The notes below the pieces were generated by a model that saw only the letters and a program-made list of their open reading frames with translations, did no database searches and had not been told where the DNA came from. A stretch of 64,000 nt of DNA from Pseudomonas nunensis (GTDB lineage: Bacteria; Pseudomonadota; Gammaproteobacteria; Pseudomonadales; Pseudomonadaceae). Positions 6,974 to 30,021 of this stretch are shown here, piece after piece. A program made the translations under genes and the position numbers. Numbering within the stretch: the stretch's first letter is position 1; each line of letters starts with the position of its first letter. Location of the stretch: NCBI RefSeq assembly GCF_024296925.1, contig NZ_CP101125.1, positions 312,501 through 376,500 of the forward strand, written 5' to 3'.

Positions 6974-8008
6974 ATGTGTGTACGATTTTTTTCAAGGGCG
7001 GTACTGTTGGCTGCGCTTTTATTCAGCCTGCCGTCCCTTGCGGCTTCGCGTTGTGACGTCAATGTCCCGACTGAACATGTCGATCTGGACCAGGTAAGCC
7101 TGGCGTACCAGAGCATTGGTCGTGCGTCCGATCCGGCATTGCTGCTGGTGATGGGCCTGGGCGGGCAACTGATCCACTGGCCGGACGAAGTGGTGGTTGC
7201 CTTGTGTCAGCAGGGCTTTCGGGTGATTCGTTACGACAACCGCGATGTCGGGCTGTCGACCTGGCGCCAGACGCCGGCCAACGCCAACCTGACCTTCGAA
7301 GTGTTGCGCTACAAACTCGGCTTGCCGGTGGCGGCGCCGTACACCTTGACCGATATGTCCGAGGACGCGTTGGGGCTGATGGACGCGTTGCACATCGAGC
7401 AATTCCACGTGCTGGGCGCGAGCATGGGCGGGATGATCGCCCAGCACATGGCAGCGATGGCGCCGCAGCGGATCGAGAGCCTGACGTTGATCATGACCAG
7501 TTCCGGGGCCGAAGGCTTGCCGGCGCCAAGTGCGGCGCTGGTGCAATTGTTATCGCGTCGCGGCGCACCGAATCGCGAAGTGGCGTTGGAGCAACAGGCG
7601 GATTTGCTCGCAGCCCTGAGCAGCCCGAGCGTGAGCGATGACCGGCAAGTGTTGCTGCAACAGGCGGCGGCTTCGTATGACCGGGCGTTCAATCCCGAAG
7701 GCGTGAAGCGCCAGATCATGGCGATCCTCGCGGAGCCGAGCCGGGTAGCGTTGCTCAACCAATTGCGCGTGCCAACGCTGGTGGTGCACGGCACGGCGGA
7801 CCCATTGTTGCCGGTGATGCACGGCGTGCACCTGGCGGCGCACATTCGCGGCAGTCAGTTGAAACTGATCCCGGGCATGGCCCATCGTTTCCAGGAAGCG
7901 TTCAAGGCGCCATTGCTCGCGGCGGTGTTGCCGTACTTGCAGTCCCACCGCGAAGACACCTCGCATTGGGCGCAGATCGAACCGGTGGCAACCCCCAACC
8001 TCCTGTAA
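6974..8008 (+). CDS. Exported alpha/beta hydrolase
   Basis: An N-terminal signal peptide ([19 protein letters not shown]) is followed by an alpha/beta-hydrolase fold. The oxyanion region is [14 protein letters not shown], the nucleophile elbow is GASMG, the acid is in [11 protein letters not shown] and the histidine in GMAHRF. The family includes esterases, lipases and aclacinomycin methylesterase-like enzymes; the substrate is unknown. The start is uncertain. ATG 6974 gives 344 residues and a clean signal peptide, while an in-frame GTG at 6905 would add 23 residues; neither has a good ribosome site. It is divergent from the Ig-like gene, and a REP element follows. Confidence 0.85.
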
Positions 8009-8022
8009 CCCCGCAAATCCAA

Positions 8023-8113
8023 CTGTGGGAGCGGGCTTGCTCGCGAAGGCGGTATGACAGCTACATTGATGTCGACTGGCACGCCGCCTTCGCGAGCAAG
8101 CCCGCTCCCACAG
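8023..8113. repeat. REP-type inverted repeat, family A
   Basis: It has the same arms as the element at 461-551 (CTGTGGGAGCGGGCTTGCTC and its complement). It begins 14 bases after the hydrolase stop and may protect or terminate that transcript. Confidence 0.9.
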
Positions 8114-8209
8114 GGGATTTGCGTTGGACACAGGGATCTGCTGCAACCCCAGCCCCGTCGGGTGTATTGTTCGAGCTTTCCGGCGCGACATTAGCCTGCG
8201 AGGTATGCG

Positions 8210-8875
8210 ATGAGTAACTCCCTGAAAATCGATTTTGTCAGCGACGTGTCCTGCCCCTGGTGCGTCGTTGGCCTGTATGGCCTGACCAAGGCGCTGGATT
8301 TGTTGGGCGACGAGGTCCAGGCGGAGATCCGTTTCCAGCCGTTCGAGCTGAACCCGAACATGGGCCCGGACGGCCAGAACATCACCGAACACATCACTGA
8401 AAAATACGGCTCCACCCCGGAGCAATCGCAGAAAAACCGCGAGATGATCCGCGCCCGTGGGGCCGAGGTCGGGTTTGCGTTTCGCACCGACGGCAGCAGC
8501 CGCATCTACAACACCTTCGACGCCCACCGCTTGCTCTACTGGGCCGGGCTGGAAGGGTTGCAGTTCAACCTGAAAGAAGCGCTGTTCAAGGCGTATTTCA
8601 CTGATGGCGGCAACCCGTCCGATCCTCAGCAACTGGCACAGATTGCCGAAAGTGTTGGACTGGATCGGCAGCGGGCCGAGGCGATTCTGGCGTCGGATGA
8701 ATACGCCAAAGAAGTTCATGAAGAAGAACAGTTGTGGCTGTCGCGGGGAGTGAGTTCGGTGCCGACGGTGGTGTTCAACGGGCAGTACGCCGTGACGGGC
8801 GGGCAGCCGGTGGAAACCTTTGTCGGGGCGATCCGGCAGATCATGAGCGAGGCGAAGGGTGGGACCGTCAGCTGA
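8210..8875 (+). CDS. DsbA-family thiol oxidoreductase (FrnE-like)
   Basis: The 221-residue protein has a thioredoxin fold with an inserted helical domain. The active-site motif is CPWC at residues 15-18 and the cis-proline loop is [10 protein letters not shown]. There is no signal peptide, which fits the cytoplasmic FrnE/2-hydroxychromene-2-carboxylate isomerase branch rather than periplasmic DsbA. FrnE proteins act as disulfide isomerases in oxidative stress, but the physiological partner here is unknown. It stands alone between two REP elements. Confidence 0.88.
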
Positions 8876-8896
8876 TCCTTCGGCGAACACCGTTAA

Positions 8897-8986
8897 TGTG
8901 GGAGCGGGCTTGCTCGCGAAGGCGGAGTGTCAGTCACACATCAATGTAGCTGACACACCGCTTTCGCGAGCAAGCCCGCTCCCACA
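8897..8986. repeat. REP-type inverted repeat, family A
   Basis: TGTGGGAGCGGGCTTGCTC arms face each other. It lies between the convergent FrnE-like gene and the sigma-54 activator gene and ends 11 bases from the latter's stop. Confidence 0.9.
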
Positions 8987-8997
8987 AGGTTTTGTGG

Positions 8998-10386
8998 TCA
9001 GCGGACGATCTTGTCCACATGAATCCCCAATTTCTTCAGCCGATACCAGAAGCTGCGCTCGGATATCCCGATCAACTGCGCCGCCGCTGCCTGCACGCCA
9101 TTGCTCTGTTGCAGCGCTGCAAGAATGTAGGCCTTTTCAACTTCAGCCAGCGCCGCTTCCAGGTCCGCCGGCACGCCGTTGTTTTCAATCAGCACGCCAC
9201 CGTCGGCAGGCCGCGAGGCGAACAGATACGCCGGCAAGTCATCCTCTTCAATTACCGACCCACTGGCCACAATCGTCGCGCGTTCCACGCAGTTCTGCAG
9301 TTCGCGAATATTCCCCGGCCACGAATAATTCGCCATCGCCTGCAACGCCTCCGCGCTAAAACCGCTGAACCGTTTACCGGCCGCAGCACCCAGCGTATTG
9401 GCGAAATGCCGGGCCAACGGCGTGATGTCTTCGACCCGTTCGCGCAGGGCCGGTAGCGGGATCGGGAACACGTTGAGGCGGTAATACAAATCTTCGCGAA
9501 ACTCTTTTTTGGCCACCGCATCCAGCAAATTTTTGTTGGTGGCCGCGATCACCCGCACATCGACCTTGCGCTCACGCGGATCACCCACCGGCTCGATCAC
9601 CCGCTCCTGCAACGCGCGCAAGATTTTCGCCTGCAAGGCCAAGGGCATTTCACCGATCTCATCGAGAAACAGCGTGCCCTTGTCAGCCTGCTGAAAGCGC
9701 CCAATCCGATCCGCTACCGCGCCGGTAAACGCGCCTTTGCGATGGCCGAACATTTCGCTTTCCAGCAAGCCTTCGGGGATCGCCGCGCAGTTGACCGCCA
9801 CGAACGGCTTGTCGGCGCGGTTGCCGTGTTTGTGGATGGCGCGGGCGACCATTTCCTTGCCGGTGCCGCTTTCGCCGGTCAGCAGGATCGTCGCGTTACT
9901 TTCGCGCACCGAATCGATCGCTTGCAGCACCCGGCGGAAACTCGGGCTATCGCCCACCAAGCTATCGATCTGCTGGTGTTCGTCGAGTTCGGCGCGCATG
10001 CGCTGGTTGTCTTTGAGGATGTCGCGAAATTGCAGGGCCTTGCTGACGGTGATGTCCAGTTCGTCGATGTCGAACGGCTTGGCAATGTAGTCGAACGCGC
10101 CGTTGCGCATCGATTGCACGGCGTTTTTCACCGTGCTGTAGGCGGTCATGACGATCACCGGCAACTGCGGAAAACGGCTTTTGATTTCCGCCAGTAACTG
10201 CGGGCCGTCCATGCCGGGCATGCGCCAGTCGCTGATCACCAGGTCGATGTCCTCGCACTCCAGCACCTTGAGCGCGTGCAGGCCGTTGCCGGCGGTGAAC
10301 ACGGTGATGCCGTTCTGACTCAGGGCCGATGCCAGCAGGTCGCAGAGCTTGGGCTCGTCGTCGACCACCAGTACGTTATGTGTCAT
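8998..10386 (-). CDS. NtrC-type sigma-54 response regulator
   Basis: The 462-residue protein has the full NtrC layout: a receiver domain (phospho-site D53, K103), an AAA+ domain with Walker A GESGTGKE at 171-178 and an intact GAFTGA loop at 218-223, and a Fis-type helix-turn-helix at the C terminus (AAQLIGISERSFWYRLKKLG). ATG 10386 is chosen because it begins the receiver domain and overlaps the kinase stop by 11 bases, so translation is probably coupled. It is the last gene of the block starting at 15228 and is the obvious activator for the sigma-54 promoter at 15276-15290. Confidence 0.92.
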   Translation of the reverse strand: MTHNVLVVDDEPKLCDLLASALSQNGITVFTAGNGLHALKVLECEDIDLVISDWRMPGMDGPQLLAEIKSRFPQLPVIVMTAYSTVKNAVQSMRNGAFDYIAKPFDIDELDITVSKALQFRDILKDNQRMRAELDEHQQIDSLVGDSPSFRRVLQAIDSVRESNATILLTGESGTGKEMVARAIHKHGNRADKPFVAVNCAAIPEGLLESEMFGHRKGAFTGAVADRIGRFQQADKGTLFLDEIGEMPLALQAKILRALQERVIEPVGDPRERKVDVRVIAATNKNLLDAVAKKEFREDLYYRLNVFPIPLPALRERVEDITPLARHFANTLGAAAGKRFSGFSAEALQAMANYSWPGNIRELQNCVERATIVASGSVIEEDDLPAYLFASRPADGGVLIENNGVPADLEAALAEVEKAYILAALQQSNGVQAAAAQLIGISERSFWYRLKKLGIHVDKIVR

Positions 10387-12172
10387 CGCTCGCCTCGTCG
10401 AAGTCGTCGCCATGGGTCGGAATGTACAGGCTGAACGTCGCACCGGCATCTTTTTCGCTGGTGCATTCGATGTGCCCGTCATGGTTTTCCATGATCGAAA
10501 ACACCTTGGCCAAACCGAGGCCGGTGCCCGACGCCTTGGTGGTCACGAACGGGGTAAAGATCCGCTCCAGCATGTCGGGCTCGATGCCCTGGCCGGTGTC
10601 CGCGACGCTGATGATGGTGTGGGCGGCGTCGCGGTGGATGCCGAGTGTCAGGTGGCCGCCGTCGGGCATGGCGTCGATGGCGTTGACGATCAGGTTCAGC
10701 CCGGCCTGCTTGAGCTGGCGCGCGTCGGCGTACAGGGTCGCGCCCGGCGCCTGATCGTCGATGTGCACCTCGATGTTGTGGCTGGCCAGTTCCGGGGCGC
10801 AAAACCCGACCAGTTCATCCACCAGCGGCCGCGCCGGTTGGGTCGAGCGCAGCGGCGCGCTGGGTTTGGCGAAGTCGAGAAAATCGGTGATCAGGTCATT
10901 GATCCGGCTGACTTCGCTGACCACGTATTCCAGATGCCGCTTATCGGTCTCGGGCAGATCCGCGCGGCGGTGCAGCAGTTGGGTGGCGGTCTTGATGATG
11001 CCCAGCGGGTTGCGGATTTCATGCGCCAGGCCCATCGCAACTTCGCCCAGCGCATGCAAACGGTCGCGGCGGCGCAGTTGAGATTCCAGGTGTTGCAACT
11101 CGCCCAGGCGTTCGCTCATGTGGTTGAAGGTGCTGCTCAGTTCCGCCAGTTCGTCGCCGCCGGTGACGGCCAAGCGCTGGCGATAGTCCCCGGCGATCAC
11201 CGCTTGCACGCCGTTGGACAAACCGCGCAACGGTTGGGTCAGGCGTTGCGAAACCAACCAGCCGACCCCGAGGGATGCTGCCGAACTGAGCAGGAAAATC
11301 AGGATGAACAGGTTGCTCTGGTTCACCAGCCCCACCAGGCTGGTATGGCGCAGCAAGCCGCTGAAAATCACGCCTTGCAACTCGCCGTTTTCATTGAGGA
11401 TCGGCCGATAGATGCCGCTGTAGCGACTGGTGAATTGTTCGGTCGGCTGTTTGGTGGTGCGCAGGATCTGTTCGATTTTTTCCGGCACCGCCGCCGGGTG
11501 ATCTTCGAAGCGCTGGCTGGAGAAAATCTCGGAAAAGTCATTGCCCTTGGCCAGGTACAACCGCAGGTCCAGCGAGTGCACATCGGAGACGCTGGTCAGG
11601 AAGCTGTTGTCGAGGTAGGTGGCGATCACCAGTTTGTAATCGACGCCATCCTGTTCAGTTTCAAACGTCGACACCACCGTGCCGGTCGGTACACCGCCGA
11701 TCTGCAAGGTCTGCATCACCGCTTTGGGCGCGGTGCTGATCTGCCGCACGATGTCATCGGCGGCGGTGCTGAACACCACTTTGTGATCGCTGTTGCGCAC
11801 CAGCGCGACAACATCGATGCCCATCGAATCGGCGATGTCAGTGGTCAATCGGTCGTGGCGCAGCGACAACTTATCCACCGGCGGGCGGACGTAGCGCAAG
11901 AACAACTGCGCGGCCCGGGCGTTGTCACGGAGGATTTCGCTGATCTCGTCCTCGACGATCTTGGTCGATTCCTGCAGCCAGATGCGCACGTTGCTGTCGA
12001 AAATCTGCGACAGGGTGGTGGCCGCCAGTTCTGCAGCGATCATGGTCGGGATCACGCTGACCAGCCAGAAGGCCAGGACCAGTTTGCGTTGCAGGCTCCA
12101 GCCGGAAAGGGCGAAGGGTCGGGCGTTGGCAGGTCGGTGTTTGGTCATCGGGTTTCGCTTGTCGAAAGCCAT
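10376..12172 (-). CDS. NtrB-type sensor histidine kinase with periplasmic Cache-like domain
   Basis: The 598-residue inner-membrane kinase has transmembrane helices at about 31-53 and 286-306 that bracket a roughly 230-residue periplasmic sensor resembling a double-Cache domain. A HAMP segment (SQRLTQPLRGL) follows. The dimerisation helix carries phospho-acceptor H384 (AHEIRNPLG), and the ATPase has N box NLIVNAID, G1 DTGQGI and G2 GTGLGL. Starts at 12172 or 12148 are both possible, with weak ribosome sites. It partners the overlapping sigma-54 regulator. Its ligand is probably a small metabolite linked to the upstream enzymes; this is inferred from context only. Confidence 0.9.
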   Translation of the reverse strand: MAFDKRNPMTKHRPANARPFALSGWSLQRKLVLAFWLVSVIPTMIAAELAATTLSQIFDSNVRIWLQESTKIVEDEISEILRDNARAAQLFLRYVRPPVDKLSLRHDRLTTDIADSMGIDVVALVRNSDHKVVFSTAADDIVRQISTAPKAVMQTLQIGGVPTGTVVSTFETEQDGVDYKLVIATYLDNSFLTSVSDVHSLDLRLYLAKGNDFSEIFSSQRFEDHPAAVPEKIEQILRTTKQPTEQFTSRYSGIYRPILNENGELQGVIFSGLLRHTSLVGLVNQSNLFILIFLLSSAASLGVGWLVSQRLTQPLRGLSNGVQAVIAGDYRQRLAVTGGDELAELSSTFNHMSERLGELQHLESQLRRRDRLHALGEVAMGLAHEIRNPLGIIKTATQLLHRRADLPETDKRHLEYVVSEVSRINDLITDFLDFAKPSAPLRSTQPARPLVDELVGFCAPELASHNIEVHIDDQAPGATLYADARQLKQAGLNLIVNAIDAMPDGGHLTLGIHRDAAHTIISVADTGQGIEPDMLERIFTPFVTTKASGTGLGLAKVFSIMENHDGHIECTSEKDAGATFSLYIPTHGDDFDEASDDT

Positions 12173-12261
12173 GGCGGGAGAAATCGTGAGGCCTGGTTCA
12201 ATACATTAGCCGACATTGCCCCGCCGGTGGCGACCCGTCTGCAACCGGGTTCGCCATGGGC

Positions 12262-13140
12262 TCAGGCCAGTTGCCGATATTCCTGGCGCAGAGGTCGCGG
12301 GATGGATCGCTGTTGAATGAAACGCTGTTGGATAAAGTCCACGCTCAGCTCAATCACCCGGCGGTATTGCAGGTCGACGGTGATCATGTGATAGCAGTCG
12401 TCCAGCAGCACCTTGACCACCGGCCCGCCGAGTTTGCGTTCGACGTAATCGGCGTTCCAGCGGCTGGTGATGTCGTCTTCGATGGAGTGCAGCACCAGTG
12501 CCTGGGTGGTGATCGATGGCATGCACTTTTTCACCACGGCATTGAGTCGGTGCAACTCGCGCACGGTGACGCCTTCCATGGTCAGCAAACCCGCTGCGCT
12601 GCTTTCGCCTTCCTTCATCTGGCGTTCGACGATGGCGCGCAGGCGTTCGTTCTTGATGCCGTAGGGCGGTTTTTCTTCGAAGCTGCAAAGGTGCACGCCG
12701 AACGGGATGCGCATCAGCAACGGCGTGAGGAACGCCAGTTTGTTGATGCTCCAGCCGTCGTAGCGCAGGGTCGTGGAATACAACAGCAAGCCTTCGATTT
12801 GCCCCGGGTGCTCGGCCGCCAGGTACATCGACAACACCGCGCCCATGGACAAGCCGCCGACGAACACATGCTCGTGTTTGCGCCGCACACCGACGAAGGT
12901 GTTGCGCGCGCTTTCGTACCAGTCGCGCCAGCCAGTGGCTTGCAGGTCGGCGTTGCCGCCGCAGTGCCCGGCGAGGGTCGGCACGTAGACCGTGTGCCCG
13001 GCTTTCGCCAGGCCCATGGCCACCCGACGGAGTTCCGTCGGGGTGCCGGTGAGGCCGTGGATCAACAGCACCGCGACCTCGCCCGAGCCGAGAACGAAAC
13101 CGGCGCTGCCTTCGCCCATATCGATCTCGTCATGCATCAT
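12262..13140 (-). CDS. Esterase-like alpha/beta hydrolase
   Basis: The 292-residue cytoplasmic hydrolase has an oxyanion motif LIHGLTGTP, a nucleophile elbow GLSMG, an acid in HSIEDDITS and a histidine in DCYHMITVD. The HGLTGTP start and overall order resemble Est30/monoacylglycerol-lipase-type carboxylesterases. Its start codon overlaps the aminotransferase stop in an ATGA junction, so the two are translated together. The substrate is unknown. The operon suggests it hydrolyses an ester or thioester intermediate handled by the aminotransferase and phosphatase. Confidence 0.85.
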   Translation of the reverse strand: MMHDEIDMGEGSAGFVLGSGEVAVLLIHGLTGTPTELRRVAMGLAKAGHTVYVPTLAGHCGGNADLQATGWRDWYESARNTFVGVRRKHEHVFVGGLSMGAVLSMYLAAEHPGQIEGLLLYSTTLRYDGWSINKLAFLTPLLMRIPFGVHLCSFEEKPPYGIKNERLRAIVERQMKEGESSAAGLLTMEGVTVRELHRLNAVVKKCMPSITTQALVLHSIEDDITSRWNADYVERKLGGPVVKVLLDDCYHMITVDLQYRRVIELSVDFIQQRFIQQRSIPRPLRQEYRQLA

Positions 13141-14531
13141 CTTTTCATCGCCCGGTGCAAGAGACGGTCGAGGAGGGCGAGACCCAGGTCAATTTCCGGG
13201 TAGCTGATTTCCAGCGACGGGGCCAGGGTGATCACGTTCTTGTAGTAGCCGCCCACGTCGAGGATCAGGCCCAGGCGTTTGCCGTCGATTTCGATGTCGC
13301 CCTTCATGCCTTCGTCGACCATGAAATCCAGGGTCGCCTTGTCCGGCGTGAAGCCGTCCGGACCGCAGATTTCGCAGCGCAGAGCCAGTCCCAGGCCATC
13401 GACGTCGCCGATGATCGGGTAGCGTTTCTGCAGGTCTTTCAGGCCTTCGAGGAAGTATTTGCCCTTGGCCATGACCATCGCGCCGTAATCGACTTCGCTG
13501 GTCATCTTGAACATTTCCAGGCCGACCGCAGTGCCCAGCGGGTTGGACGCGAAGGTCGAGTGAGTCGAACCCGGCGGGAAGATTTTCGGGTTGATCAGTT
13601 CTTCCTTGGCCCAGATGCCACCCAGCGGGTTGAGGCCATTAGTCAGCGCTTTGCCGAAGACGATCACGTCCGGTTTGACGTCGAAGTGCTCGATTGACCA
13701 CAGCTTGCCGGTGCGCCAGAAACCCATCTGGATTTCATCGACCACCATCAAGATTCCGTGCTGATCCAGCACGTGCTTGAGTTCGCTGTAGAAGTTCATC
13801 GGCGGGATCACGTAGCCGCCGGTGCCCTGGATCGGCTCGACGTAGAAGGCTGCGTATTCACTCTGGCCGACTTTCGGGTCCCAGACGCCGTTGTATTCAG
13901 TCTCGAACAAACGGGCGAATTGCTGCACGCAATGGCTGCCGTATTCTTCCTTGGTCATGCCTTTCGGGCCACGGAAGTGGTACGGGAACGGGATGAAGTT
14001 GGCGCGCTCGCCGAAGTGGCCGTAGCGACGGCGATAGCGGTAGCTGGAGGTGATCGACGACGCGCCGAGGGTGCGACCGTGGTAACCGCCTTCGAAGGCG
14101 AACATCAAGCTCTTGCCGTTGGTGGCGTTACGCACGACTTTCAGCGAGTCCTCGATGGACTGCGAACCGCCGACGTTGAAATGGACGCGACCGTCGAGGC
14201 CGAATTTTTTCTTGGCATCGACCGCGATCATTTCCGAGAGCTCGATCTTGCCTTTGTGCAGGTACTGGCTGGCGATCTGCGGCAGGGTGTCGATCTGCTG
14301 TTTCAGCGCGTTGTTCAGGCGCGGGTTGGCGTAACCGAAGTTGACCGCCGAGTACCACATTTGCAGGTCGAGATAGGCCTGGTCTTCGGTGTCCCACACG
14401 TACGAGCCTTCGCAGCGGCTGAAAATGCGCGGCGGGTCAATGTAGTGGACGGTGTCGCCGTAGGAGCAATATTTGGCTTCTTTATCCAGAAGGATCTGGT
14501 CTTCGGCGGTAGCGATTCGAATATCAGACAT
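13137..14531 (-). CDS. Class III PLP-dependent aminotransferase
   Basis: The 464-residue fold-type I enzyme belongs to the aspartate aminotransferase family as annotated in databases, and to subgroup III by motif. VVDEIQMGFWRTG contains Asp265, which binds the pyridine nitrogen; VFGKALTNG contains Lys294, the likely Schiff-base lysine; STHSTFASNPLGTA follows. ATG 14531 is chosen because AGGAA precedes it and it overlaps the phosphatase stop by eight bases. Members of this family act on omega-amino acids, amines or phospho-amines, and some are phospho-lyases. The adjacent phosphatase makes a phosphorylated or amino-alcohol substrate plausible, but nothing in the sequence fixes it. Confidence 0.88.
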   Translation of the reverse strand: MSDIRIATAEDQILLDKEAKYCSYGDTVHYIDPPRIFSRCEGSYVWDTEDQAYLDLQMWYSAVNFGYANPRLNNALKQQIDTLPQIASQYLHKGKIELSEMIAVDAKKKFGLDGRVHFNVGGSQSIEDSLKVVRNATNGKSLMFAFEGGYHGRTLGASSITSSYRYRRRYGHFGERANFIPFPYHFRGPKGMTKEEYGSHCVQQFARLFETEYNGVWDPKVGQSEYAAFYVEPIQGTGGYVIPPMNFYSELKHVLDQHGILMVVDEIQMGFWRTGKLWSIEHFDVKPDVIVFGKALTNGLNPLGGIWAKEELINPKIFPPGSTHSTFASNPLGTAVGLEMFKMTSEVDYGAMVMAKGKYFLEGLKDLQKRYPIIGDVDGLGLALRCEICGPDGFTPDKATLDFMVDEGMKGDIEIDGKRLGLILDVGGYYKNVITLAPSLEISYPEIDLGLALLDRLLHRAMKR

Positions 14532-15228
14532 GATGGAAGAGTTCCTGTGTTTCGACGTTGAAAGAGGTGGCGTTGGCGCTGCTGGCAACAGGCAGCTGAG
14601 CCAGCAGGGCTGGAAGTTCGGCGAAGCTGTCGAAGCGTGCGTAGGCGATGCCGTTGCGCTCGCAGTGCTCGGCCAGGCGATCCTTGGCGAACACGAAATC
14701 GGCGGTGGACGCCACGCACATGTCCGACTGACCGTCACCGATCACCAGCACCCGTTTGCTCTTGGGCGTGGACTTGCATTTGCAGTTGCCGGACGCGGCG
14801 CGGCAGGCGTCGCTGGAGTACGGGAAGTCGATGCGCCAGCTCTCGTGGCCGAGTTGGCGCAAGCGGTTGGCGAGAATCGGCAGCAGGGTCACGTAGTTGC
14901 GCGCAAGAATTCGCGCGATGCCTTGCTCGATGCCGTCGCTGACCACTTCGAGGGTGGCGCCGAGGCCGATCACGTGGTCGACGAAGTCGGGGAAGTCCGG
15001 GTCGATTTCGATCGTGTCGAAAAACGCGAGCAGTTCGTTCGGCGTGGCCTTGACCAGCGAGAGCTGGCGGCTGAGGCATTCACGGGAACCGATGTCGCCT
15101 TGCAGCCACTCGTTTTCGATCGCTTCCCAGCTCGGGTCGGCGAAGCGCTGGAGGATGCTGTCGATCACGTCGGTGCGGGTGATGGTCCCGTCGAAATCAC
15201 ACACGATATGCCAATCATTCATCTGCAT
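14524..15228 (-). CDS. HAD-IB phosphatase, MtnX-like
   Basis: The 234-residue HAD hydrolase has nucleophile motif DFDGTIT (first Asp near residue 11), motif II VVSDG and motif IV VIGDGQSDMCVA. A cysteine-rich insert (C-x6-C-x-C) before motif IV recalls the metal-binding insert of MtnX-type phosphatases. It should dephosphorylate a small metabolite. AGG lies eight bases before the second ATG (15222), which may be the real start. It is the first gene of the block, 35-40 bases from the predicted transcription start of the sigma-54 promoter. Confidence 0.87.
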   Translation of the reverse strand: MQMNDWHIVCDFDGTITRTDVIDSILQRFADPSWEAIENEWLQGDIGSRECLSRQLSLVKATPNELLAFFDTIEIDPDFPDFVDHVIGLGATLEVVSDGIEQGIARILARNYVTLLPILANRLRQLGHESWRIDFPYSSDACRAASGNCKCKSTPKSKRVLVIGDGQSDMCVASTADFVFAKDRLAEHCERNGIAYARFDSFAELPALLAQLPVASSANATSFNVETQELFHHV

Positions 15229-15275
15229 TACCTATTGGGGCAGGGCGCGCTGTTTGCGCTTGCAGAAGGGGTAGA

Positions 15276-15290
15276 GCAGGGACTGTGCCA
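15276..15290 (-). promoter_or_regulatory. Predicted sigma-54 promoter of the phosphatase/aminotransferase operon
   Basis: On the minus strand the sequence reads TGGCAC-AGTCC-CTGC. It has the invariant GG and GC separated by exactly ten bases and one mismatch to TGGCAC-N5-TTGC. Transcription would begin near 15264, just before the phosphatase gene. The operon itself encodes an NtrC-type activator. Confidence 0.65.
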
Positions 15291-15344
15291 ATCGGCTTGG
15301 GCCCCGTATTTACTGGGTTTCAGCAGGTGTGTGCGTCAGCGAAG

Positions 15345-15370
15345 CTACAATTTTTGTAGGTTGCTACAAA
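15345..15370. promoter_or_regulatory. Palindromic activator-site cluster (CTACAA/TTGTAG)
   Basis: Three alternating half-sites make two overlapping perfect dyads: CTACAA-TTT-TTGTAG (15345-15359) and TTTGTAG-GTTG-CTACAAA (15353-15370). They sit about 80-105 bases upstream of the predicted sigma-54 start, the usual place for an enhancer-binding-protein site, and about 72 bases before the divergent mipA-like start. Confidence 0.6.
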
Positions 15371-15441
15371 CAACATGAGTGCTTGCGCAGGCAGGGCGAA
15401 AAGAGGATTGATGCGCGCATATCTTGTTAAGGAAGGGCCTC

Positions 15442-16194
15442 ATGTCGAGGATTACTGTTGCTCTGTTTGCGGCGCTGACGTGCTTGTCAGCCAACGTTCT
15501 GGCCGATGGCATTACCGGTGAGGCCGGTGCGGGGCTGAGTTATCAGCCTCATGACCCGACCGGCAGTCGCCATGAAGTCCGGCCGGTGCCGTATGTCGAT
15601 CTGGACTGGGGCGATGTCAGCCTCAGCACCGACGATGGGCTGACCTGGAGCGCGTTGAAAACCAACGGTTTCAGCGCCGGGCCGTTCCTCAATTACCTCC
15701 CGGGGCGCACCGCCAACGGCAGTTTGCAGGGCCTGCACGATGTGCCGGACATGGGCGTGGTCGGTGGGTTCGTGCAATACGCGCCGGCTGATTTCTGGCG
15801 GGTGTTTGCGACCGTGGGCGAGGCCGTCGGCGGGCAGCAAGGCGTGGTCGGCAGGGTCGGTGGCGAGATCGGTTATCCATTGGGTGGCGGGGTGATTGGC
15901 AGCAGCAACCTGACGGCACACTTTGCCGATGCGCAGCAGAATCAGGCGTTTTATGGGGTGAGTGGTTCAGAGTCGCAGGCTTCGGGCATTGCCCGCTACA
16001 ACGCTGGTGGCGGTTTGCAGAATGTGGCGTTGACCCAGAGCTTTGAGTTTCCGCTGGCAACCCATTGGTCGCTGTTGACCAGTGCGAGCTGGATTCACCT
16101 GACGGGCTCGGCGGCGGACAGCAGCATCGTCAAACAGGTCGGGCAACAGGATCAGGGGGAAGTGCAGGCGGCGGTGGCTTATAAGTTTGATTGA
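15442..16194 (+). CDS. MipA/OmpV family outer-membrane protein
   Basis: The 250-residue protein has a signal peptide (ITVALFAALTCLSANVLA) followed by alternating beta-strands and a C-terminal aromatic/hydrophobic strand VAAVAYKFD, as in outer-membrane barrels. The family is MipA/OmpV, with members linked to MltA scaffolding or small-molecule passage. ATG 15442 has a clear AAGGAAG ribosome site. It is divergent from the phosphatase operon and shares the palindrome cluster, so it might import or export that operon's substrate (inference). Confidence 0.82.
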   Translation: MSRITVALFAALTCLSANVLADGITGEAGAGLSYQPHDPTGSRHEVRPVPYVDLDWGDVSLSTDDGLTWSALKTNGFSAGPFLNYLPGRTANGSLQGLHDVPDMGVVGGFVQYAPADFWRVFATVGEAVGGQQGVVGRVGGEIGYPLGGGVIGSSNLTAHFADAQQNQAFYGVSGSESQASGIARYNAGGGLQNVALTQSFEFPLATHWSLLTSASWIHLTGSAADSSIVKQVGQQDQGEVQAAVAYKFD

Positions 16195-16230
16195 CTCTGA
16201 CACCCTGAAATTTTGTGGCTCCCGAAATAC

Positions 16231-16347
16231 ATTGTGGCGAGGGAGCTTGCTCCCGCTTGAGTGCGCAGCACTCACAAAATTAGTGCTCGTTGCCGGAATC
16301 TTGGGGCCGCTTCGCAGCCCAGCGGGAGCAAGCTCCCTCGCCACAAT
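16231..16347. repeat. REP-type inverted repeat, family C (TTGTGGCGAGGGAGC)
   Basis: ATTGTGGCGAGGGAGCTTGC and its complement flank a longer, imperfect centre. The same family occurs at 21017 and 26580. It lies between the convergent mipA-like gene and the small transporter genes. Confidence 0.88.
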
Positions 16348-16361
16348 TGATCGCGGTGTTA

Positions 16362-16763
16362 TCAGGCTTGTTCGCCTTCAGCCAACAACGCAATCCCCGC
16401 AATAATCACCGCCACGCCCACCCAGTGCAGCAAGCTGATCTGCTCGCCCAGCCCCAACCACGACCCCAGCAATACCCCGACAAACACCAGCGAACTCAGG
16501 GGAAACGCCAGGGACAAACTGCTGCGGCGCAAGATCAGCATCCAGACAAAGAACGCGCCGATGCCGCAGCCCACCGCAAACAAAACCCCGGGGTCGACGA
16601 TCACTGCTTGCAGCCAGTGCAGGGTAAAAGTCATCTGGCCCAACTGATCGCCACCGACCTTGGTCGCAATCTGCCCGGCACTTTCCAGCGTAATCAACAG
16701 CGCCCAGAGCACCACCGTGCCGAGTCGCCCGTGCAGCCAACCCATCGATTCGGCATTACGCAT
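16362..16763 (-). CDS. Small DMT/EamA-type membrane transporter, second of a pair
   Basis: The product is about 133 residues with four predicted helices (LGTVVLWALLITLE, AVIVDPGVLFAVGCGIGAFFVW, SLSLAFPLSSLVFVGVLLG, LLHWVGVAVIIAGIALLA), the size and shape of an SMR/EmrE-like half transporter. ATG 16763 overlaps the upstream gene's stop by eight bases; a GTG at 16772 is an alternative. With the overlapping partner it probably forms a heterodimeric small-molecule or lipid-sugar transporter. The substrate is unknown. Confidence 0.78.
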   Translation of the reverse strand: MRNAESMGWLHGRLGTVVLWALLITLESAGQIATKVGGDQLGQMTFTLHWLQAVIVDPGVLFAVGCGIGAFFVWMLILRRSSLSLAFPLSSLVFVGVLLGSWLGLGEQISLLHWVGVAVIIAGIALLAEGEQA

Positions 16764-17130
16764 GGCCAGCACACGCGAGCATCACGCCCACCGTAATCAC
16801 CAGCGTTGCGAGCCAGCGCCGGCGGCTGACTGTTTCGCCGAGCACCACTTTGCCCGCCAGCACCACGCCGCAATAGGCCAGGGCCCCGGCCGGAAACAAC
16901 AGGCTCAACGGTGCCCGGGACAAGGCTTCGAGCCAGACGAAAAACTCCAGGGCATAGGCGCTGATCCCGCACCACAACAGCGGCGCATTGAACACCTGGC
17001 CCCAGAACGCGTTCAGCCGAAAACCGCCTTCGAGTTCCGGCAAACGGTCCAGGCCGAGTTTGAAACAGAGCTGGCCGATCACATCCAGCACGATGGAAAA
17101 CGCCACCAGCACAATGACGGTGAAGGTCAT
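16756..17130 (-). CDS. Small DMT/EamA-type membrane transporter, first of a pair
   Basis: The 124-residue protein has four hydrophobic segments: MTFTVIVLVAFSIVLDVIGQ, APLLWCGISAYALEFFVW, ALSRAPLSLLFPAGALAYCGV and WLATLVITVGVMLACAG. ATG 17130 starts the first helix; the longer frame upstream runs through a REP element and is not coding. It overlaps the next transporter gene, and paired small subunits of unequal sequence are typical of two-gene SMR systems. Confidence 0.78.
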   Translation of the reverse strand: MTFTVIVLVAFSIVLDVIGQLCFKLGLDRLPELEGGFRLNAFWGQVFNAPLLWCGISAYALEFFVWLEALSRAPLSLLFPAGALAYCGVVLAGKVVLGETVSRRRWLATLVITVGVMLACAGHA

Positions 17131-17281
17131 GGGCGTGGTGCCTTTTTGAGAATATTCACGGTCAGGATCTACCCCTGGGTGGGCGCTTTCAGACACCGGG
17201 CTCATCAGGTATGAGCACCGGCCGAGAGGGCTTTGGGGGTAAATGCAAGGGGCGGGCCAGCCGCTGGCGACGCAGTTCCCT

Positions 17282-17371
17282 TGTGGGAGCGGGCTTGCTC
17301 GCGAAAGCGGTGTGTCAGCCAACATGGATGTTAAATGTGCTGGCCTCTTCGCGAGCAAGCCCGCTCCCACA
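17282..17371. repeat. REP-type inverted repeat, family A
   Basis: TGTGGGAGCGGGCTTGCTC arms are seen again. The element lies between glpM and the small transporter pair. Confidence 0.9.
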
Positions 17372-17387
17372 GGGGATGGTGGGGTGA

Positions 17388-17726
17388 TCAGGCGTGGACG
17401 CGTACCCAGACGCTGACGAGCACGGTCGCGGCCATCAACCAGGCCACCGCCGCCACGGCCAGCGAAGCTTCCAGGCGCATGCGATCCACCATCACGTACA
17501 ACGTGGCCAGGTACACGAAGTAGGGAATGATCGACCACATGCCAAACACGATGGTGGTCTTCAAATCGTCGAGTGAGCGGCCCTTCCCGACGATGTAGTG
17601 CGCGATCAGCGCGAAGGTTGGGAACAGCGGCACCAGCCCGGCGATGTAATAGTTTTTGGTCTTGGCCAGCGCGGCAAGGATCAGTACCACCGCCGCGCCC
17701 AGGAGCGCTTTGATCATCAGGTCCAT
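17388..17726 (-). CDS. glpM: GlpM family membrane protein
   Basis: The 112-residue protein has four hydrophobic helices (ALLGAAVVLILAALA, AGLVPLFPTFALIAHYIV, TTIVFGMWSIIPYFVYLATLYVM, AVAAVAWLMAATVLVSVW) and matches the small GlpM membrane family, known in P. aeruginosa for an effect on alginate production. Its start overlaps the aauR stop by one base, so it is co-transcribed with aauSR here rather than lying beside glpD. Confidence 0.82.
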   Translation of the reverse strand: MDLMIKALLGAAVVLILAALAKTKNYYIAGLVPLFPTFALIAHYIVGKGRSLDDLKTTIVFGMWSIIPYFVYLATLYVMVDRMRLEASLAVAAVAWLMAATVLVSVWVRVHA

Positions 17727-19054
17727 CAGTGGCTCAGTCCGTACTTTTTGACTTTGTCGAACAGCGTGGTCTTGGCCATTCCCAGTTCCAGGCTGGCCTG
17801 GGTCAGGTTGCCGCCGCTGCGCTGCAAGGCGTCGTTGAGCAGGTTGCGTTCGAACGCTTCCACCGCTTCGGCGAACGCCAAGCCTTGATTGCTGCCACTG
17901 GCGCCGGACTTTTTAAAGGCTGGCAAACCGAGGGCGAAACGTTCGGCGACGTTGCGCAGTTCCCGCACGTTGCCCGGCCAGTCGTGGCTCATCAGGTTGG
18001 ACAGGGTCTGGTTATCCAGCTCCGGCACCGCGCGGTCAAAGCGCAGGGACGACTGCTGCAGGAAGTATTCGAACAGTTGCAGGATGTCTTCGCGACGTTC
18101 GCGCAGCGGCGGCAGTTCCAGGGTCACCACGTTAAGGCGGTAATACAGGTCGCTGCGGAACTCGCCCTTTTTGCTCGACTCGTCCAGGTCGGACTTGGTC
18201 GCCGCAATCACCCGGCAATCCACCGCCACGCTCTGGTTCGAGCCGAGGCGTTCGAGGGTGCGTTCCTGCAACACCCGCAGCAGTTTTATCTGCAACGGCA
18301 GCGGCATGCTTTCCACTTCATCGAGGAACAGCGTGCCGCCGTCGGCGTGTTCGATCTTGCCAATCCGCCGCTTGCCGGCGCCGGTAAAGGCGTTTGCTTC
18401 GTGACCGAAGATTTCGCTTTCGAACAGGTTTTCCGGGAGGCCGCCGCAGTTCAGCGCGACGAACTGTTTGGTGTGGCGGCGACTGAAGTCATGCAGGCAA
18501 CGGGCGACCAGTTCCTTGCCGGTGCCGGTCTCGCCTTCGATCAACGCGTTGGCCGAGGTATCGGCGACGTTGGCGATCAATTCGCGCAGGTTCTGCATCG
18601 CTGGCGAGCGGCCGATGATCCGGCCTTCCAGGGAGTCCCGTTCCGCCAGTTGTCGACGCAGCGACGAGACTTCGCGAGCCAGGCTGCGTTGCTCCAGAGC
18701 GCGGCGTGCCACGTCCACCAGACGTTCCGGGGAGAAGGGTTTCTCCATGAAATCGTAGGCGCCTTTCTGCATCGCGCCGACCGCCATGGAAATGTCGCCA
18801 TGACCGGTGATCAGCACCACCGGCAGGCTGCGGTCGCGGGCCTTGAGGCGGGTCAGCAGTTCGAGGCCATCGATGCCCGGCAGGCGGATGTCGCTGATGA
18901 CGATCCCGGCAAAGTTGTCGCCGACCCGCTCTAGGGCTTCTTCGGCGCTGCCGACGCCGACACAGGGAATGTCTTCCAGGGTCAGCGCCTGTTGGCAGCC
19001 GAGCAGCACATGGGGGTCGTCTTCGACGATCAGCACACTAAGGTCGTTGTTCAT
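17726..19054 (-). CDS. aauR: AauR, sigma-54 response regulator for acidic amino acid use
   Basis: The 442-residue NtrC/DctD-like activator has a receiver with D55 and K105, an AAA+ domain with Walker A GETGTGKE (174-181) and a Fis helix-turn-helix. The sigma-54-contact loop reads NAFTGA (221-226) instead of GAFTGA. It is named AauR rather than DctD because aauSR lies directly downstream of aatJQMP, as in P. putida, and two matches to the published AauR site TTCGG-N4-CCGAA lie before aatJ. It overlaps aauS by four bases. Confidence 0.88.
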   Translation of the reverse strand: MNNDLSVLIVEDDPHVLLGCQQALTLEDIPCVGVGSAEEALERVGDNFAGIVISDIRLPGIDGLELLTRLKARDRSLPVVLITGHGDISMAVGAMQKGAYDFMEKPFSPERLVDVARRALEQRSLAREVSSLRRQLAERDSLEGRIIGRSPAMQNLRELIANVADTSANALIEGETGTGKELVARCLHDFSRRHTKQFVALNCGGLPENLFESEIFGHEANAFTGAGKRRIGKIEHADGGTLFLDEVESMPLPLQIKLLRVLQERTLERLGSNQSVAVDCRVIAATKSDLDESSKKGEFRSDLYYRLNVVTLELPPLRERREDILQLFEYFLQQSSLRFDRAVPELDNQTLSNLMSHDWPGNVRELRNVAERFALGLPAFKKSGASGSNQGLAFAEAVEAFERNLLNDALQRSGGNLTQASLELGMAKTTLFDKVKKYGLSH

Positions 19055-20952
19055 ATTGGCTCGGCGGGAGTGGGGCTTACCAACGGTAAACTGAGGACGA
19101 AGGTGGTACCACCGCTGGCCGGGTGTTCGACACCCAAGTGACCGCCGGTGGCCGCGGCCAGGCTGGCGGAGAGGGTCAGGCCGAGGCCCAGGCCCTGTTC
19201 GCCGGGTTTGGTGGTGAAGAACGGTTCGAACAGATGCTTGCGCGCTTCGGCGTCGATACCGTGGCCGTTGTCGCGTACCCGCAGGCGATATTTACCGTCA
19301 AACTCTTCGCCTTCCAGCCACAGCTCGGGTAGCGGTTGCGACTGCATGGCGTCGAGGGCGTTGCCGATCAGGTTGACCAGGATCTGCTCCAGCCGCGTCT
19401 GGTCGATCTGCACTTGCACGTCTTTCAAGTCGCGGTGCAGGTCCAGATGTACGCTTTCCATTCGACTACCGAGCAGTTGCAACGCAGCGTCCACGGCTTT
19501 GCCGAGACTGGCCTGGCCCTTGTCGTCGCCGCGCCGGGCGAAGGAGCGCAGGCTGGCGGTGATGCGGCCCATGCGGTCGATCAGTTCGTTGATGGTTTTC
19601 AGATTGGTGCTGGCGACGTCCAGTTGACCGCGCTCCAGGAAGCGCACGGTGTTGCCGGACAAGGTCCGCAGTGCGGCCAGTGGCTGGTTCAATTCATGCG
19701 CGATGCTGGTCGACATCTGGCCGATGGCCGCCAGTTTGCCAGCCTGGACCAATTCATCCTGAGCCCGGCGCAACGTCTCTTCGGCCTGGCGCCGTTCGCG
19801 GATCTGACCCTTGAGCCGCTCGTTGCTGGCGCGCAGGTCGGTGGTGCGTTCGGTAATCCGACGCTCCAGTTGATTGTTGGCTTCCTGCAAGGCTTCCCGA
19901 GCCGCGAGACGGGTGGCGATGACCTTGCGCCGCTCGTTCCAGGCGATCAGCAGGAACGCCACGAGGGCAAACGCCACCGCTACCAGAATCCCCTGATTGA
20001 TCGCTTCCCGGCGCAAATCCGCGAGGGGCGTCAGCAGGGTGAAATTCCACGGGGTGTCGCTCAAGGGGCGGGTTTGTGCCAGATAGGTGATGTCTCGCTC
20101 GTCGGACGCCAGCTCGCTGTTGGCGGGGAAGGTCAGTTTCTCCACGCCTTCGGCCAGGGTTTCCCGGGCCAGCGGTTGCAATTCGTTCAGCGGAAACCAG
20201 TAGTACTGCAGACTGCGGGCGAGTTTTTCCTTGGTTTCGTCGCTCAGCGGCACCACGGATTTGAGCCGGCGCGCGGGATCGCTGGAGAGAATGATGATGC
20301 CGTTCTCATCGCTGACGAAAGCTTCGAGGCGCGCACGCTGCCAGCGTTCTTCCATGGCTTCGAGGCGTACCTTGACCACCGCGACGCCGATGATCTTGCC
20401 GTGTTCTTCCAGGCCGTGGGCCAGGTAATAGCCGGGTTCGCCGTTGGTGCTGCCGATGCCATAGAAGCGGCCCGGCTGACCGCGCACGGCGTTCTGGAAA
20501 TAGGCGCGAAAGGACAGGTCTTCACCGAGGTAACTGTCGACATCGCGCCAGTTGCTGGTGGCCAGCACGCGCCCGGTGGTGTCCATGACGTAGATGGCCC
20601 GACTGCGGCTGCGCCGGTTCAGGCCTTCAAGGTAATCGTTGACCGTTTGCCGGGTTTCCGGGGTCGGGTCGTCCAGCAGTTTTGAAACACTGGATTCGAG
20701 TTCCAGCAGGCTGGGCAGGTAGGTGTACTTGCTGATCTCGCTCTCGACGGCGCGGGCGTGCAGTTCCAGCTGGCGCTGGCCGTTCTCGCTGAGGCTGCGG
20801 ATCCCGTAGTGTTCACTGACCCAGAAGCCGATGTAACCCAACCCGATCATCAGGGCGATGACCAGCGGCGGCAGGAACAGATGGCGAATCAGACGGGGTT
20901 TCACGGCGAGTGATGGCGGCGCTGCGCGATAGAGAGTGGGGTCGCATTTCAT
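19051..20952 (-). CDS. aauS: AauS, sensor kinase for acidic amino acids
   Basis: The 633-634 residue DctB-like kinase has transmembrane helices at about 27-47 and 321-339 around a tandem-PAS/Cache periplasmic domain, a cytoplasmic coiled coil at about 350-400, the phospho-acceptor His near 420 in SIAHELNQPLAALR, and ATPase boxes NLIGNALDAM, DNGHGI and GLGLGL. ATG 20952 is preferred over the GTG just before it because AAGG is eight bases upstream. Context suggests it senses glutamate or aspartate for the adjacent transporter. Confidence 0.88.
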   Translation of the reverse strand: MKCDPTLYRAAPPSLAVKPRLIRHLFLPPLVIALMIGLGYIGFWVSEHYGIRSLSENGQRQLELHARAVESEISKYTYLPSLLELESSVSKLLDDPTPETRQTVNDYLEGLNRRSRSRAIYVMDTTGRVLATSNWRDVDSYLGEDLSFRAYFQNAVRGQPGRFYGIGSTNGEPGYYLAHGLEEHGKIIGVAVVKVRLEAMEERWQRARLEAFVSDENGIIILSSDPARRLKSVVPLSDETKEKLARSLQYYWFPLNELQPLARETLAEGVEKLTFPANSELASDERDITYLAQTRPLSDTPWNFTLLTPLADLRREAINQGILVAVAFALVAFLLIAWNERRKVIATRLAAREALQEANNQLERRITERTTDLRASNERLKGQIRERRQAEETLRRAQDELVQAGKLAAIGQMSTSIAHELNQPLAALRTLSGNTVRFLERGQLDVASTNLKTINELIDRMGRITASLRSFARRGDDKGQASLGKAVDAALQLLGSRMESVHLDLHRDLKDVQVQIDQTRLEQILVNLIGNALDAMQSQPLPELWLEGEEFDGKYRLRVRDNGHGIDAEARKHLFEPFFTTKPGEQGLGLGLTLSASLAAATGGHLGVEHPASGGTTFVLSLPLVSPTPAEPI

Positions 20953-21016
20953 CACAGATGCCTTGGGTCAACCAGCGTGGCAACAGGCTTGCTCTGGTTT
21001 CCAGTCGAACGCGGAC

Positions 21017-29169: not shown

Positions 29170-30021
29170 TCAAGAAGTTCTTGGTTTGCCGTCAATGGCC
29201 GGTGTTGCGTCCTTTGTAGCAGGTTCGGTGCCAGGCAGATGACGGGCAATCAGCCCGCGATATGCAGCAGCGCCGAGGCAGGCACCGACAATCGGTGCAA
29301 AAATCGGAATCAGGAAGTACGGGATATCGCGCCCGCCGGTGAAGGAAATTTCACCCCAGCCAGTAAAGAAAGTCATCAGCTTAGGACCGAAATCACGCGC
29401 CGGGTTCATCGCGAAACCGGTCAGCGGACCCATCGAGCTGCCAATCACTGCAATCAGCAGGCCGATCAGCAGTGGCGCCAACGGACCCTTTGGCAGGCCG
29501 TTGTTGTCGTCGGTCAGGGACATGATCACGCCCATCAGGATGGCGGTGATGATCACTTCAACCAGGAACGCCTGGGCCGTGGACAGGGCCGGGTGCGGGA
29601 AGGTGGAGAACACCGACGCCAGCTCAAGGCTTGCCTGAGTGCCACGAACCATATGGTGAGTTTGTTCGTAATCGAAGAATAAATTGCTGTAGAGCGTGTA
29701 AACCAACAACGCTCCACAGAACGCGCCAGCGACCTGCGCGAGGATGTAGAAGGGCAGTTTGCGTTTTTCGAAATCGGCGAAAATGCTTAAGGCGATACTG
29801 ACGGCAGGATTGAGGTGAGCCCCGGAAACACCGGCGGTCAGGTAGATCGCCATGCTCACGCCAACACCCCAGATGATACTGATTTCCCAAAGCCCGAAGC
29901 TGGCACCCGCGACCTTGAGCGCGGCAACACACCCCGTCCCGAAAAAGATCAACAGCGCAGTGCCCAGGAATTCGGCCATGCATTGGCTCGAGAGTGGCGG
30001 TTGTTTCAAAGCAGTTGTCAT
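29170..30021 (-). CDS. glpF: Glycerol facilitator GlpF (aquaglyceroporin)
   Basis: The 283-residue MIP-family channel has both NPA boxes: SGAHLNPAVS near residue 65 and GFAMNPARDFGP near 200. The Asp after Arg in the second box is typical of glycerol-conducting members. ATG 30021 has AGAGG upstream. It is the first gene of glpFK(R); a GlpR-like operator lies about 130 bases before it. Confidence 0.95.
   Translation of the reverse strand: MTTALKQPPLSSQCMAEFLGTALLIFFGTGCVAALKVAGASFGLWEISIIWGVGVSMAIYLTAGVSGAHLNPAVSIALSIFADFEKRKLPFYILAQVAGAFCGALLVYTLYSNLFFDYEQTHHMVRGTQASLELASVFSTFPHPALSTAQAFLVEVIITAILMGVIMSLTDDNNGLPKGPLAPLLIGLLIAVIGSSMGPLTGFAMNPARDFGPKLMTFFTGWGEISFTGGRDIPYFLIPIFAPIVGACLGAAAYRGLIARHLPGTEPATKDATPAIDGKPRTS

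Follow-up and report, generated by a model that had tools for sequence, protein, structure and literature searches.

The window analyzed here is a 64,000-nt stretch of the Pseudomonas nunensis genome (NZ_CP101125.1, positions 312,501 to 376,500) that holds a minus-strand cassette of five genes: pho, encoding a phosphatase, amt, encoding an aminotransferase, hyd, encoding an alpha/beta hydrolase, and the regulatory pair ntrB and ntrC. From sequence comparisons, we put at about an even chance that this cassette is a cut-down version, still under selection, of a conserved mobile system making an amine-bearing acyl product of the cell envelope, such as an aminolipid or another lipid-linked amine. 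The five-gene run with its overlaps was confirmed as given in a preliminary description of the region, and all five open reading frames (ORFs) are open: pho (14524..15228) comes first, followed by amt (13137..14531), hyd (12262..13140), ntrB (10376..12172) and ntrC (8998..10386). Neighbors overlap by 8, 4 and 11 bp, and the sole gap, 89 bp at 12173-12261, separates hyd from ntrB. The idea that the cassette is a closed unit did not survive comparison with relatives. The system extends upstream to mipA and to dmt2-dmt1, which have their own conserved sigma-54-type promoter, and two more genes, gnat and argL, are present in most Pseudomonas relatives and deleted in the window.

The first comparison took in 80 loci; L-numbers below denote individual loci of this and later comparisons. 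Most Pseudomonas loci have an additional gene of about 1.1 kb, gnat, between hyd and ntrB and more partners upstream, so that the full Pseudomonas set is pho, amt, hyd, gnat, argL, dmt1, dmt2, mipA and ntrBC. In Pfam, the gnat of L018 matches only PF04339 (FemAB_like) and PF13480, and it matches no NCBIfam model at E 0.01; the protein has the tandem-GNAT fold of FemX and MprF. A search of the PDB returned no convincing sequence relative (best E 0.08). argL belongs to the arginase family (PF00491), with the metal ligands H, D-x-H-x-D and D-x-D invariant in 58/58 relatives. The two small EamA-type membrane proteins retained in the window, dmt1 (16362..16772, minus strand) and dmt2 (16756..17139, minus strand), score 27.3 and 22.7 bits against a PF00892 cutoff of 28.2. 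Relatives of dmt2 lie within the operon of Bosea (40-41%), and EamA genes occupy the same place in Agrobacterium. The divergent partner mipA (15424..16194, plus strand) encodes a MipA/OmpV outer-membrane protein (PF06629, E 5e-35); it adjoins pho in 67/68 Pseudomonas-type loci and follows ntrC in Bosea. There, the genes form a single colinear run, pho-amt-argL-dmt-hyd-gnat-dmt-ntrB-ntrC and then mipA, and two Agrobacterium plasmids repeat this order minus ntrBC. In L161, hyd and the N-terminal portion of gnat are fused in a single ORF (7864-9465, minus strand).

Further versions of the cluster were found in a set of 31 loci that were read. In 13 of them, including those of Bartonella, Wohlfahrtiimonas, Rhodanobacter, Oleiagrimonas and Pigmentiphaga, amt is accompanied by gnat and argL of another type; DegT, together with EamA genes, is nearby in 9 of these 13, and likewise in Xanthomonas sacchari. 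Genes for an acyl carrier protein (ACP) and a FabF-type ketosynthase stand beside the core in 7 of the 31, plus Xanthomonas sacchari. An operon on a Rhizobium plasmid (L173 14676-19241) includes a fatty acid desaturase and a cyclopropane fatty acid (CFA) synthase, which suggests long acyl chains. It is conceivable that the same genes build a small secreted molecule, such as a non-protein amino acid, an amine antibiotic or a signal, rather than a membrane lipid. Sba18 and Sbb17, which match gnat closely in structure, are peptide synthases solved with streptothrisamine according to their entry titles, cispentacin ACP and ketosynthase models are among the below-cutoff matches of the cluster ACP and ketosynthase, and ABC/TolC-type exporter genes lie near the cluster on Agrobacterium and Xanthomonas plasmids. 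We consider a secreted product unlikely, given the long chains suggested by the Rhizobium operon and the absence from the cassette of the genes named for the FVG cluster. Other additions were seen singly or in pairs: L164, from a genome of the same phylum, has a sulfotransferase gene (10788-11732) directly after a divergent (55%) amt, and two ACP-ketosynthase versions share a conserved 245-aa protein after hyd (L163 7328-8065 and L162 7420-8157), for which the L163 copy gave no Pfam match.

As judged by their distribution, the cluster genes are a co-inherited set. In a survey of 398 Pseudomonas genomes, with limits of E up to 1e-150 for amt, below 1e-150 for gnat and below 1e-160 for argL, we found amt in 113 genomes, orthologs of gnat in 94 and orthologs of argL in 74. 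Nearly every genome with gnat also carried amt (93/94), and those with argL carried gnat without exception (74/74) and amt in 73 cases. A distant second pair, gnat2-argL2, is present in 16 amt-positive Pseudomonas genomes, none of which has an argL ortholog, and is confined to amt-positive genomes of that kind. All three gnat2-argL2 loci that were read (L165, L166 and L167) have EamA genes beside the pair, and L165 and L167 have DegT as well; the pair also stands beside an acylase of the penicillin amidase family, and genes that by eye resemble a polyamine-type ABC transporter are close. In a phylum-wide draw, amt was found in 25/398 genomes (E up to 1e-140), and 34 plasmid records carry it, the annotation having been read in 5 of them. 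The 11 relatives of amt picked from other genera are 73-78% identical to it. Loci truncated at contig ends were tallied apart, and L082 and L085-L092, from other genera, were scored as gnat-lacking at a 45% limit yet carry relatives of 27-35%.

The window copy of this set is, on the evidence of alignments and substitution rates, secondarily reduced: gnat and argL have been lost and the remainder is under purifying selection. The genome is complete, a single 7.33-Mb contig, and in all of it gnat has no match at E 0.01 and argL is absent; at E 1e-20, the same queries match 98/398 (gnat) and 90/398 (argL) Pseudomonas genomes, the distant pair included. By alignment, the 89-bp gap between hyd and ntrB (12173..12261, minus strand) is the deletion scar of gnat. 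Within it, a 43-nt stretch (12225-12183) aligns to internal gnat sequence of L023 (81%) and L026 (79%), 28 nt match gnat in L016 and L027, and the alignment resumes near the gnat end and ntrB start. The site of the argL deletion (17134..17189, minus strand) is marked by its flanks, as the alignment upstream of dmt2 to the argL-bearing L016 and L023 runs to about 30 bp before the argL start and picks up again from the argL end, with argL missing between. In a FastTree tree of pho, amt and hyd, loci without gnat and argL are scattered among carriers, with 11 changes for three states. Some absences may be ancestral, because both genes are likewise missing from the outgroup and from basal loci. 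When the window was compared with three relatives in which the two genes are also absent, dN/dS came to 0.016-0.17 for pho, hyd, ntrB, ntrC, dmt1 and dmt2 and to 0.004-0.063 for amt; ratios this low argue that the retained genes are in use. The alternative that the cassette is a decaying relic, functionless in this strain, would account for the two deletions, one of which left a scar, but it is highly improbable given that none of the five genes is broken, that the two promoters and the dyad described below are intact as well, and that seven genes have low dN/dS in the clade.

Control by sigma-54 through a self-encoded regulator, as the preliminary description proposed, is borne out at the level of sequence by an NtrBC-type pair in the same gene run, a conserved promoter and one exact putative activator site genome-wide. 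The ntrC product is a sigma-54 activator with receiver, AAA+ and Fis-type helix-turn-helix domains (PF00158, E 3e-73; PF00072, E 2e-31), in which the GAFTGA and Walker motifs, reported earlier to be intact, are both legible. ntrB encodes a sensor kinase with HAMP, HisKA and HATPase domains, and its orthologs adjoin the core in Pseudomonas, Nevskia (L080/L081) and Bosea (L085/L089). The predicted promoter of pho-amt-hyd(-ntrBC), TGGCACAGTCCCTGC at 15276-15290 on the minus strand, is a TGGCAC-N5-CTGC element located where it had been described, before the first gene. Alone, the match is weak, since the window has two against 0.64 expected and at least two occurred in 11/100 shuffles; the other lies at 29219-29233 on the minus strand. 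It is conservation in relatives that upholds the promoter. TGGCAC is invariant in 16 of 16 aligned sequences, the window and 15 hand-chosen loci, and the strict pattern, with C/TTGC at -12, lies upstream of pho in 54/76 loci (50/68 Pseudomonas-type and 4/8 others); Nevskia L080/L081 and Bosea L085/L089 are among the 54. L022, L031, L042, L048 and L073 fail the strict pattern yet retain TGGCAC with a different -12.

The presumed activator site (15345..15370, minus strand) had been proposed without its motif, which we find to be a perfect dyad, TTGTAG-N4-CTACAA, spanning 15354-15369 (expectation for the window, 0.00). It lies some 80 bp beyond the promoter on the upstream side, and a third TTGTAG comes after it, as is usual. 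Of the Pseudomonas-type loci, 64/68 have the dyad. Its exact form has one copy in the 7.33-Mb genome, a search allowing one mismatch adds one place, and a control with the motif reversed yields 6 per strand; this genome-wide dyad search found no regulon beyond the cassette locus. Because the exact dyad is single in the whole genome, the activator looks dedicated to the cassette locus, with the dyad as its putative site. A second sigma-54-type promoter, TGGCCC-N5-TTGC (17245..17259, minus strand), is retained in the window ahead of dmt2-dmt1, and the TTGTAG dyad is not nearby. In relatives it precedes argL-dmt2-dmt1: CTGGCCC-N5-TTGCA lies before argL in 37/38 argL-bearing Pseudomonas loci against 0.2% in base shuffles, with a pattern that was set only after the motif had been seen.

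Such regulation also fits a catabolic cassette, in which NtrBC would sense a phospho-amine, amino alcohol or ester that hyd, pho and amt degrade for nitrogen or carbon, in line with the preliminary description in its broad outline. Pairs of the sigma-54/NtrBC kind frequently govern catabolism, the top models for the regulator are AtoC and NtrC (both under cutoff), and a second sigma-54 activator/kinase pair adjoins at 17726-20955. A minimal gene set is also in keeping with degradation: in the stretch read, Nevskia L080/L081 and L160 have only pho-amt-hyd-ntrBC. We nevertheless regard a catabolic role as rather doubtful, for no dehydrogenase, binding protein or uptake system was seen recurring in the loci compared. 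The partners that do recur or are inserted are a ketosynthase, an ACP, a transferase of the FemX/MprF fold and small exporter-like proteins, and once a desaturase and CFA synthase.

The three core enzymes show conserved motifs or residues. pho matches PF12710 (E 3.5e-7) and, under its cutoff, PF06888 (E 3.2e-4), and its D-F-D-G-T motif and C-K-C triplet are identical in 90/90 ORFs. The earlier label of MtnX-like phosphatase holds for the subfamily, as pho just reaches the TIGR01489 cutoff (81.8 against 81.55 bits). It does not extend to true MtnX of methionine salvage, which we rejected because the scores fall far short of the NCBIfam equivalog cutoffs (98.9 against 303.2 bits and 114.4 against 292 bits). 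Although fold and motifs are common to pho and to MtnX and related HAD-IB phosphatases (PF06888, a group that we take to include PHOSPHO1), the operon has no other methionine-salvage gene. amt is a pyridoxal 5'-phosphate (PLP)-dependent class III aminotransferase of 464 aa (PF00202, E 5e-72), with the PLP lysine, Lys294, and Thr435 and Thr237 invariant in 96/96 ORFs. In class III enzymes of the GABA-AT/OAT kind, a C-terminal Arg binds the alpha-carboxylate and a Glu acts as gate. In an alignment, Thr435 and Thr237 occupy the positions of the Arg and Glu of OAT-type enzymes, so that amt has neither the carboxylate Arg nor the gate Glu of the glutamate/2-oxoglutarate type. The AlphaFold model of amt was poor (pLDDT 64) and was left unused. 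hyd matches PF12146 (E 6e-16) and the structure 4ke9 (E 4e-27), and its closest solved relatives are monoacylglycerol lipases; the presumed Ser, Asp and His triad is kept in 88-89 of 89.

If the system makes an envelope amine, amt would aminate a carbonyl compound and pho would take off a phosphate, with an amino alcohol or similar compound as the joint outcome. In some taxa the acyl part would be supplied by the ACP and FabF-type ketosynthase, and hyd would act on an ester or thioester, by cleavage or by transfer. Where the cluster is complete, an additional group might be added or trimmed by argL together with gnat, the transferase of FemX/MprF fold, before or after which the small EamA pair would carry the product through the membrane. 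Only the simpler core product would then be expected from the window strain.

Several observations weigh against this proposal. The window and the 68 Pseudomonas-type loci yielded no ACP or ketosynthase of this kind, and the acyl link therefore has to be drawn from other taxa. The minimal sets of Nevskia and L160, with Nevskia L084 showing pho-amt-hyd only in the stretch read, imply that the core is useful without the putative tailoring genes, and the mipA, dmt and desaturase neighbors could be partly local context. Co-inheritance has exceptions: genome G256 has gnat and argL with no amt match at the limit used, 20 of the 113 amt-positive genomes lack gnat and argL orthologs (2 of these have gnat2-argL2), and another 20/113 have gnat without an argL ortholog (14 with gnat2-argL2 and 6 without). 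When L018 is the comparison, the 89-bp gap shows no remnant of gnat, and 22/76 loci lack the strict promoter pattern. As for the enzymes, the families of pho, amt and hyd are broad and a common fold proves no function, and loss of the Arg and Glu is not peculiar to amt, since by alignment the class III enzyme 6io1 is without both too.

Among known systems, ornithine and related aminolipids (OlsB/OlsA, GlsB, SalA) are amine-bearing acyl lipids, the kind of product proposed here. The cluster's transferase, however, is of PF04339/PF13480 rather than the OlsB type, and the five cassette proteins contain no acyltransferase domain at E 0.001 that would mark an OlsB-type N-acyltransferase. A term search of a review on aminolipids found no mention of an aminotransferase or a phosphatase (PMC11631085). 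MprF and FemX are aminoacyl-tRNA-dependent transferases; in contrast, gnat stands as a protein of its own, linked to amt, pho, hyd and argL, and it has been lost from the window. MprF plus flippase, or OlsB-type aminolipid synthesis, would work somewhat similarly, but the window cassette is by our tests a member of neither. The cluster's paired small EamA proteins weakly resemble ArnE/ArnF, the flippase of lipid-linked aminoarabinose. For dmt1, the ArnE model gives E 1.2e-9, far under its cutoff, and the ArnE and ArnF scores are 38 and 35 bits against cutoffs of 92 and 99; aminoarabinose synthesis genes are not seen in the cluster.

Kinship with the furanomycin and oxyvinylglycine pathways had been raised as a possibility, and fluorescent pseudomonads are indeed hosts of the gvg and furanomycin pathways as they are of the cassette. 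The relation finds no support in term searches and passages of the two papers nor, for gvg, in gene content. In the gvg (FVG) paper the genes named are those for formyl-, carbamoyl- and amidinotransferase and for LysE transporters, and a term search found 'aminotransferase' and 'phosphatase' neither there nor in the furanomycin paper. Among the cassette proteins, to which the search was confined, there is no formyltransferase (gvgI), carbamoyltransferase or LysE transporter, taking the genes named in those passages as the reference.

The cluster is apparently undescribed: we met no account of it in searches of open-licence literature, and a description elsewhere is possible. The identity of amt is about 75% across genera as far apart as Bartonella and Pseudomonas, and the gene is plasmid-borne in Rhizobium, Agrobacterium, Bartonella and Xanthomonas. 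A set this widespread and tightly co-inherited, for which we found no described product, is a testable gap in envelope or secondary metabolism. The strict coupling of argL to gnat, together with natural loss strains, provides built-in controls for a product search via lipid or metabolite profiles. More tentatively, and with a probability well short of even, the cluster may represent a previously unrecognized class of envelope aminolipid, for which alpha-, beta- and gammaproteobacteria would carry a regulated, mobile cluster: an amino-alcohol core formed by amt and pho out of a phosphorylated carbonyl compound, a chain from the ACP and ketosynthase, charge adjustment by gnat and argL, and then export by the EamA proteins. 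If this is true, some pseudomonads, the window's included, have switched to the short-headgroup form.

The loci closest to that of the window belong to P. frederiksbergensis, P. arsenicoxydans and their relatives. Pseudomonas libanensis DSM 17149 has two copies of the core (L060 and L063), and L060 lacks an adjoining mipA, ntrB, ntrC and dyad. In the window, repetitive extragenic palindrome (REP)-like palindromic repeats, for example GTGGGAGCGGGCTTGCTCGCGAA, occur at 8893-8990, 16230-16350 and 17280-17380; these stretches border the cassette on its flanks and also lie close to the argL deletion site. The neighboring sigma-54 activator gene, with a sensor kinase gene behind it (17726-20955, minus strand) and glpM adjoining, belongs to a pair that may be AauR/AauS-like. 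This activator is found inside the flanks of most Pseudomonas loci, in either orientation.

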